Assembly: GCA_040757115.1 (NCBI GenBank)
Contig: JBFLYA010000126.1
Span: 1 to 6,407 of the forward strand
Length of the DNA: 6,407 nt
Origin: a bacterium
GTDB lineage: Bacteria > UBA9089 > CG2-30-40-21 > SBAY01
Direction of reading: 5' to 3'
Made by a program: the position numbers and the translations under genes. The notes beneath the pieces were generated by a model. It ran no database searches. It had not been told where the DNA came from and saw only the letters and a list, made by a program, of their open reading frames with translations. This document shows, one piece after another, positions 3,084-5,230 of this stretch. Every line of letters begins with the position of its first letter. Position 1 is the stretch's first letter.

Positions 3084-3132
3084 ATTCATTCACAATTCGC
3101 AATTCACCATTCACAATTCACGATTTTTTTCC
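3084..3132. repeat. ATTCAC repeat copy at the 3' end of the four-helix-bundle gene
   Basis: Degenerate ATTCACAATTC(G/A)C units run from 3084. The 19-mer TTCACCATTCACAATTCAC at 3103-3121 recurs exactly and in the same orientation at 3511-3529. The similarity continues as (G/A)ATTT(T/C)TTCC at both sites. The repeat reaches into the gene and supplies its TGA stop (3120-3118) and the last Ser codon. Confidence 0.8.
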
Positions 3133-3474
3133 TATCGTCCGTATGCTGGAACTGATGATTTTTGAGAGCTCATCACATTCTTTAACCACGCTCAATAGTT
3201 GATTAATGGGTAACAAATTGCTTCGTTTTATAATCTCCAACCAAATTCCAGATTCATTTAATTCTTTCAAAACAATCCCCAACTTGTGAACAAAATCATT
3301 TTTACTTTCCGCTCCTCGTGCTTCACCATAATTCGGTGCAGGAGAAGTACCACATCGAAGTAATTGCCCCGCAATGTGTTTCCCAACCTGAGTATTTGGT
3401 AATGCAGAGCATAATTCTATAATCATGACTGCAAAATTAATCAATCGTTCCTGAATATCATCCCCTTTTGCCAC
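3118..3474 (-). CDS. four-helix-bundle protein, 23S rRNA intervening-sequence (IVP) family
   Basis: A 118-aa mostly helical protein of the family first noted as ORFs in intervening sequences of 23S rRNA genes and structurally related to the Avd protein of diversity-generating retroelements. Family marks are QLLRCGTSPAPNYGEARGAE (residues 37-56), KNDFVHKLGIVLKE (58-71) and NESGIWLEII (73-82). Its cellular role is not established; no enzyme motif is seen. It starts at GTG 3474, with AAGGAG (3488-3483) spaced 8 nt. An ATG at 3478 is out of frame and stops after six codons, and an in-frame TGA directly precedes the GTG. No rRNA or reverse transcriptase is near, so neither classic setting applies. 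The gene is bracketed by copies of the same ATTCAC repeat (3103-3132 and 3511-3540), and its stop codon lies inside the left copy, which suggests it arrived as a repeat-bounded cassette. Confidence 0.9.
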   Translation of the reverse strand: MAKGDDIQERLINFAVMIIELCSALPNTQVGKHIAGQLLRCGTSPAPNYGEARGAESKNDFVHKLGIVLKELNESGIWLEIIKRSNLLPINQLLSVVKECDELSKIISSSIRTIGKKS

Positions 3475-3976: not shown

Positions 3977-3987
3977 TTGAATTCATA

Positions 3988-3993
3988 CCTCCT
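3988..3993 (-). promoter_or_regulatory. rplT Shine-Dalgarno with long spacer and decoy AUG
   Basis: AGGAGG lies 11 nt before the rplT ATG at 3976. As at infC, the next bases are TATGA, which places an out-of-frame AUG 1 nt after the Shine-Dalgarno. The L20 protein start [12 protein letters not shown] fixes the true start at 3976, so the nearer AUG is not the rplT start. Confidence 0.7.
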
Positions 3994-4013
3994 TTATGGT
4001 AACTATTTACCCT

Positions 4014-4232: not shown

Positions 4233-4525
4233 CTGGTAATTGGTTTAGAGTTCTGCAAAACCAGGAAACTGTGGTTTTTAAGCGGGTATTTAATTTCCTC
4301 CACAGATGAAAATGCAAAAAGCAAATATAAAAATTACATATCAAAATGTAAAATTATCTCTTTCCTTTCAGCGTTAAAATACTTGAAGCAAAGATATTAC
4401 CAATTTGAAATTTGATTTGTAATTTTGCATTTTGATATTTATATTTGATATTTAATATTTGATATTTGATATTTATTTGTTGTCTCCCCCAAATCCTATT
4501 TTGCAGAACCCTACTGGTAATTGGT
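4233..4525. mobile_element. candidate MITE-like element with terminal inverted repeats between infC and rpmI
   Basis: AGAGTTCTGCAAAA (4247-4260) and TTTTGCAGAACCCT (4499-4512) are inverted copies matching at 13 of 14 positions, 11 of them contiguous. Just outside them the 12-mer CTGGTAATTGGT occurs exactly at 4233-4244 and again at 4514-4525 in direct orientation, like a target-site duplication. The implied insert is about 269 bp with no coding frame. Inside, AAAATGCAAAA (4309-4319) and TTTTGCATTTT (4423-4433) are another perfect inverted pair, and CTGTGG/CCACAG (4269-4274, 4300-4305) form a small hairpin, so the element is rich in secondary structure. It fills most of the 380-bp gap, where infC and rpmI usually lie close together. 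Caution: GGTAATTGG-type words recur in gaps of this window, so the direct repeat may be part of a repeat family rather than a duplicated target. Confidence 0.5.
4434..4474. repeat. AT-rich tandem repeat, about 7-nt period
   Basis: Six degenerate copies of GATATTT (four exact, plus ATATTT and AATATTT variants) run end to end inside the candidate MITE, next to its right terminal repeat. Such runs vary by slippage. No function is evident. Confidence 0.7.
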
Positions 4526-4543
4526 AATTATGTGTAATTATTT

Positions 4544-4594: not shown

Positions 4595-5110
4595 TCACTT
4601 ATGTTTTTTATCTGGGGCTAAAATCATTATCATTTGTTTGCCTTCTAATTTTGGCATCACCTCGACTATTCCTATTTCTTTCAAATCCTCTACAAGTCTA
4701 TCGAGTATTTTCCTCCCCAACTCTGAGTGTTCCATTTCTCGTCCTCGAAATCCCATTATTATTTTAACCTTATCTCCGTCCTGTAGGAATTTGGAAATAT
4801 GTCTAAGTTTGACTTCATAATCATGCCTTTCAATGTGAGGTCGAAGTTTTATCTCTTTTACTAAAATAATCTTTTGCTTTTTCTTTTTCTCCCGTTCTTT
4901 TTTTCTTTGTTCGTATCGATATTTACCATAATCCATAATTTTACAGACAGGCACCGTTGAATCAGGAACTATCTCGACTAAATCTAAATCTTTCTCCATA
5001 GCTAAGTCTAATGCTTTATATAAAGGGATAATTCCTATCTGTTGTCCATCTGTATCTATCACTCGAACTTCTCTTGCTCGAATTTGCCTATTTATTCTAA
5101 GTCCCTTAAT
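4595..5110 (-). CDS. infC: translation initiation factor IF-3 (proposed AUU start)
   Basis: IF3 binds the 30S subunit, prevents premature 50S joining, and rejects non-canonical start codons and wrong initiator tRNA. The protein from AUU is 171 aa (E. coli 180). The N-domain has RINRQIRAREVRVI at residues 5-18 and PVCKIMDYGKY at 54-64. A Lys-rich linker follows at about 69-80, then the C-domain with FRGREM at 121-126 and the terminal GKQMIMILAPDKK. No ATG can start it. The in-frame stop TGA at 5119-5117 closes the frame upstream, and the next standard candidate, GTG at 5062, would delete the conserved RINRQIRAREVR segment. ATT at 5110-5108 gives Met-Lys-Gly, matching the E. coli IF3 start (AUU AAA GGC), and an AGGAGG lies 11 nt before it. 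AUU is the known basis of infC autoregulation in E. coli. ATA at 5095 is a weaker alternative, and a one-base sequence error joining it to the ATG at 5120 cannot be excluded. Confidence 0.95.
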   Translation of the reverse strand: MKGLRINRQIRAREVRVIDTDGQQIGIIPLYKALDLAMEKDLDLVEIVPDSTVPVCKIMDYGKYRYEQRKKEREKKKKQKIILVKEIKLRPHIERHDYEVKLRHISKFLQDGDKVKIIMGFRGREMEHSELGRKILDRLVEDLKEIGIVEVMPKLEGKQMIMILAPDKKHK

Positions 5111-5127
5111 AGTTACTCATACCTCCT
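5106..5127 (-). promoter_or_regulatory. infC ribosome binding site with four-codon minicistron
   Basis: A full AGGAGG (5127-5122) lies 11 nt before the proposed AUU start of infC at 5110. An AUG at 5120-5118, only 1 nt after AGGAGG, opens a four-codon frame (ATG AGT AAC TAT TAA). Its UAA stop (5108-5106) overlaps the last base of the AUU codon. The AUG is out of frame with infC and too near the Shine-Dalgarno to be an obvious start. It may be a decoy, or a coupling device in which ribosomes stop and restart at AUU. The sequence is clear; the role is speculative. Confidence 0.6.
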
Positions 5128-5133
5128 TTTTAT

Positions 5134-5163
5134 TGGTAACTGGTGAATGGTAATTAGTTACCA
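5134..5163 (-). repeat. inverted repeat (hairpin) in infC leader
   Basis: TGGTAACT (5134-5141) and AGTTACCA (5156-5163) form a perfect 8-bp stem with a 14-nt loop. In the infC transcript the hairpin ends just 6 nt before the Shine-Dalgarno. It could modulate infC translation, where L20 or IF3 control acts in other bacteria. However, its words (GGTAA, GGTGAATGGTAATT) belong to the low-complexity repeat families found in several other gaps here, so it may only be a repeat copy. On the plus strand it is followed by GTTTTT, but no plus-strand gene precedes it. Confidence 0.5.
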
Positions 5164-5201
5164 GTTTTTAATTTCATGAAGCCTCTTTGTCCCTGGTCAT
5201 A

Positions 5202-5230
5202 AGAATATCATATCTTAATAATAATGTCAA
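5202..5230 (-). promoter_or_regulatory. predicted sigma70-type promoter for infC-rpmI-rplT
   Basis: On the minus strand a perfect -35 box TTGACA (5230-5225) is followed after exactly 17 bases by TATTCT (5207-5202), a 4/6 match to the -10 consensus. The -35 box overlaps the thrS stop codon. Transcription would start near 5195 and give a leader of about 85 nt before infC. In E. coli infC also has a promoter within thrS, so the placement is plausible. This is a consensus match only. Confidence 0.6.

Follow-up and report, generated by a model that had tools for sequence, protein, structure and literature searches.

The window analyzed here, a 6,407-nucleotide stretch of DNA, carries on its minus strand the end of thrS followed by infC, rpmI, and rplT, an order usual for these genes. 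The infC gene encodes translation initiation factor IF3 (171 aa) and occupies positions 4595 to 5110, reading from an AUU codon at 5110–5108 to a stop codon at 4597–4595; its product matches both Pfam IF3_N and IF3_C. Read 5′ to 3′, the start region is AAAGGAGGT-ATG-AGT-AAC-TAT-TAA, with the IF3 frame opening at ATT 5110, and the upstream context is AATAAAAAGGAGGT ATG AGT AAC TAT TAA GGG. An AGGAGG at 5127–5122 is followed by T5121 and by an ATG at 5120–5118. This ATG opens a four-codon mini-ORF (continuing AGT, AAC, TAT, and ending with TAA at 5108–5106) that spans 5106 to 5120 on the minus strand, within the spacer between the Shine–Dalgarno (SD) element and the infC start, and is probably not translated. 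Base 5108 is common to ATT 5110–5108 and the TAA. An earlier note on this DNA had described these elements, and every coordinate in it is right on the minus strand.

The SD element, AAAGGAGG (5122–5129, minus strand), complements the 3′ end of the genome's own 16S rRNA, CCTCCTTT; it is a perfect SD, since the 16S rRNA tail of the source genome, read from locus L139, is GGATCACCTCCTTTCT. The AUU start codon (5108–5110, minus strand) lies 11 nt 3′ of AGGAGG, a spacing at the long end. In the IF3 frame, a TGA at 5119–5117 is followed by GTA ACT ATT AAG GGA CTT AGA ATA AAT, and ATT 5110 is the only AUN, GUG, or UUG codon from that stop to the conserved IF3 N-terminus. The first in-frame ATG, GTG, or TTG is the GTG at 5062, inside the IF3 N-domain, which gives an ORF of 155 aa and costs the protein 16 residues. 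Among these are N7, I10, and R16, which do not vary across ten aligned IF3 proteins. Against TIGR00168 (cut-off 60), the 171-aa protein scores 236.6 bits over profile positions 5–170, and the GTG-started form 215.9 bits over positions 18–170. The earlier expectation that standard gene callers would shorten this gene by 16 residues is borne out, and homology and the congeneric genome described below agree with it. By its IF3 family, by the frame and SD distance of its start, and by the retention of that start in relatives, the gene belongs among the infC genes with a non-canonical AUN start, and both its SD and its AUU are clearly real.

A sigma-70-like promoter, TTGACA-17-TATTCT with a TG before the −10 (extended −10), is located at 5202–5230 on the minus strand and is the probable infC promoter; its −35 overlaps the thrS stop codon. 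The promoter-like hexamer, its place, and its spacing are shared by all four family genomes, while the leader below is not kept. Since TTGACA-17-TATTCT is retained in all four, infC is probably transcribed from a promoter of its own, with a short leader. Between species the body of this leader varies, and it consists of dispersed repeats; the fold of the 177 nt leader is no better than those of shuffled sequences (z −0.66), and no Rfam family matched in the window.

AUU as an infC start codon

The start codon of infC is a well-known non-canonical start associated with IF3 feedback, being ATT in E. coli and ATC in Streptomyces, and in E. coli IF3 represses its own mRNA (PMC5472188). Across 130 infC loci drawn from many phyla and scored with a simple SD-and-spacing rule, the best-fitting start was AUU, AUA, or AUC in 117; the rule is heuristic and individual calls may err, but the total is clear. 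The full counts are AUU 60, AUA 40, AUC 17, ATG 4, CUG 3, GTG 3, TTG 2, and none 1. The AUU start of infC is therefore ordinary and of a known kind, and the earlier assignment of the start to AUU is upheld by the phylum-wide pattern as well as by homology and the congeneric genome. For annotation, gene callers that accept only ATG, GTG, or TTG would leave this IF3 short of 16 conserved residues and would miss the start of most of the infC genes surveyed.

The closest comparison is with E. coli K-12, in which infC reads GGAGGAATAAGGT ATT AAA GGC and is annotated from ATT. The two genes share an AUU AAR GG- start, a strong SD, the thrS-infC-rpmI-rplT order, and a UAA that overlaps the AUU by one base. 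They differ in SD-to-start spacing, which is 8 nt in E. coli (GGAGG-8 nt-AUU AAA) and 11 nt here. They also differ in the position of thrS, the stop codon of which adjoins the infC AUU in E. coli, 3 nt before it, whereas here the end of thrS lies >110 nt upstream and is followed by the conserved promoter-like site, unlike the E. coli arrangement. In S. aureus, where start positions were mapped experimentally, infC starts at AUA, and infC and other starts with an extended SD resemble the present case in that a strong SD directs a non-canonical start (PMC13009471). The S. aureus gene differs in its start codon, and a spacer mini-ORF is not reported in the available part of that source.

In the mechanism that we favor, the strong SD AAAGGAGG would direct infC translation from AUU 5110 within a normal thrS-infC-rpmI-rplT operon. 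IF3 destabilizes initiation complexes on codons other than AUG, GUG, and UUG. Given that property, together with homology and the start codon itself, IF3 most likely limits its own synthesis here by translational repression, as it does in E. coli.

Conservation of the start region among relatives

The earlier note had proposed a comparison with the infC leaders of close relatives. In a congeneric genome (G001, locus L003), in which infC is 94% identical, the start region AAAGGAGGTATGAGTAACTATTAAGGGACTTAGAATAAATAGG is letter-for-letter the same; the match is exact from AAAGGAGG to IF3 codon 12, and the leader above diverges. Two genomes of the sister genus (G002 and G003) have AAAGGGGTG ATG TGT AAT TAC TAA G, in which the AUU frame context is GTA ATT ACT AAG. 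In these genomes and in another family of the phylum, f3, the AUU lies one codon further upstream, at 9 nt from the SD (GTA ATT ACT versus GTA ACT ATT in the window). Family f3 has GGGGGTGATCAGTAATTACC or GGGGGTGATTAATAATTACC, with the AUU kept and the ATG absent. Because the sister genus and f3 place the AUU 9 nt from the SD, the AUU is the kept element while the spacer changes. These sequences are most simply explained by an ancestral AUU in the group at 9 nt from the SD, which in the genus of the window was shifted one codon downstream by two changes (from ATT ACT, possibly through ATT ATT, to ACT ATT). The sister genus has no stop–start overlap, the AUU there being inside the mini-ORF. The comparison points to selection having kept an AUU at 9–11 nt rather than the overlap.

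These relatives also bear on whether the AUG at 5120 is truly in frame with IF3 and was displaced by a sequencing or assembly indel. The frame offset by itself would fit such an error, and an in-frame ATG at this place does occur in the distant family f8 (L034 and L035), the only relatives in which the in-frame ATG or GTG that would have spoken against an AUU start was found. Against this, two independent assemblies from different species of the genus are identical at the infC start, and both sister-genus genomes have the same frame offset. There is hardly any chance of an indel, and the agreement of G001–G003 in the offset rules it out in the main.

The infC start region in family f8, also of this phylum, is GGAGGTG-ATG-CAG, in frame with IF3 and with the ATG 2 nt from GGTG. 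In L034 the in-frame ATG is two codons above the AUU place, and in L035 the AUU place is occupied by GTT. Given f8, the phylum is not wholly uniform at the infC start.

The AUG in the spacer

The earlier note had suggested that the spacer AUG is either a decoy that competes for the infC SD or a coupling device for restart at AUU. The AUG begins 1 nt 3′ of AGGAGG, and in E. coli experiments a 5′ start codon at short spacing from a strong SD was physically barred from the P site (PMC9841429). The SD–antiSD helix would thus keep AUG 5120 upstream of the P site, at too great a distance for use, and an AUG at a usable SD distance, the mark of a regulatory uORF or coupled minicistron, is not found here. 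The competing AUGUG and GUGUG starts of that study are similar in that two potential starts share one SD and spacing decides between them, and dissimilar in that one start here is an AUU and the AUG lies deep in the excluded zone (PMC9841429). The literature searched yielded no description of a minicistron in the infC spacer.

The earlier note had also pointed to the one-base overlap of UAA and AUU. The overlap is present but calls for no special account: an AUU followed by a lysine codon (AAR) always spells AUUAA, so the overlap is automatic, and it occurs in E. coli as well. The in-frame UAA of the mini-ORF would come from AUU AAG itself. When the 11-nt spacer was shuffled, an out-of-frame mini-ORF of ≤4 codons arose in 12% of trials. 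Among the 120 surveyed loci with a start other than ATG, GTG, or TTG, the only ones taken for this rate, 10 have a spacer mini-ORF (≤12 codons), versus 7.0 ± 2.5 with shuffled spacers, and four of the ten are from the source family alone. Mini-ORFs therefore occur near infC starts at about the chance rate, and the minicistron is unremarkable.

An internal control is provided by rplT, which is AUG-started (3976) and lies three genes into the infC operon. The same 13-mer, AAAGGAGGTATGA, is present on the minus strand before infC (5117–5129) and before rplT (3983–3995), with a like spacer AUG and the start codon 11 nt on in both. The arrangement at rplT is the same in G001, and G002 has AAAGGAGGTATGAATTAAATG. 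A genome-wide search for AAGGAGGTATG-7 nt-ATG returned only rplT of the infC operon. In the source genome, AGGAGGNATG and short out-of-frame ORFs precede the real AUG at four further loci (L144, L154, L160, and L162), and the 11-nt spacing occurs in 8 of 98 AAGGAGG-ATG pairs among the matches listed. Because the spacer AUG is also found in rplT, in G001 and G002, and in other genes, it is ordinary here and not linked to AUU, and the geometry shared by infC and rplT speaks against an AUU-specific role. AUGs directly beside an SD are frequent in this genome, and tests of spacing and conservation are needed before any of them is taken for a minicistron.

A role for the mini-ORF nevertheless has some points in its favor. 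It is kept in all four family genomes, across both genera, as ATG-NGT-AAY-TAY-TAA (M-x-N-Y-stop, either MSNY* or MCNY*); two of the three differences between the genera are synonymous in its frame; and the E. coli thrS stop has a geometry that would permit coupling there. With few genomes and few sites, however, such retention can be explained by ancestry and a constrained ribosome binding site. GGTGAT is an extended SD, and a chance G after it makes GGTG-ATG; the sister-genus AUG is the end of just such an element (GGTGAT+G). In f3 the ATG was lost (GGTGATC, GGTGATT) while the flanking ribosome binding site letters and the AUU stayed; the stop–AUU geometry is not kept in the sister genus; and rplT has a spacer AUG yet needs no AUU repression. 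With the spacing and the near-chance frequency added, a translated mini-ORF with an effect on infC, whether as a decoy lowering AUU initiation or through termination at UAA and restart at AUU, seems to us highly unlikely. That the family mini-ORF (M-S/C-N-Y-stop) on the infC SD adds a second layer of control to AUU-based IF3 feedback is very unlikely. The decoy and coupling proposals are accordingly not sustained.

Relative to the mini-ORF, IF3 is read in the +1 frame, and both genera have a UAY UAA slip site. A programmed +1 frameshift resembling that of prfB, in which ribosomes start at AUG 5120 and, at UAU UAA G, slip to the frame of IF3, would make use of both features. The SD-like stimulator that prfB-type frameshifting has some 3 nt ahead of its slip site was not found in ATGAGTAACTATTAAG; the sole SD is 10 nt before TAT. 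The AUG is unusable by its spacing, the AUU is at usable spacing in every family genome, and relatives outside the family lack such an AUG but have an AUU at the SD. A frameshift is extremely improbable and, with the stimulator absent and the AUG unusable, was ruled out. Taken with the conservation of the AUU, these observations make it very likely that infC is translated from AUU 5110 and that the spacer AUG is incidental and unselected.

Repeats and a neighboring gene

Intergenic heptamer repeats with AATTACC units are present at 4513–4530 and 5132–5165. Exact double units of AATTACC number 81 in the genome and 0 in a reversed control. On another contig of the source genome (C77 of G000, locus L173), AATTACC heptamers and a second heptamer, TCCCGAG, form in-frame parts of a long repetitive ORF (QLPITNYQLPIT and PSPESRVPSPESR, in units of 189–303 bp), and one repeat family is therefore found both between and within genes. 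Finally, directly behind rplT, at 3118–3474 on the minus strand, there is a gene for a 23S rRNA-intervening-sequence protein (four-helix bundle, PF05635), located outside rRNA genes.
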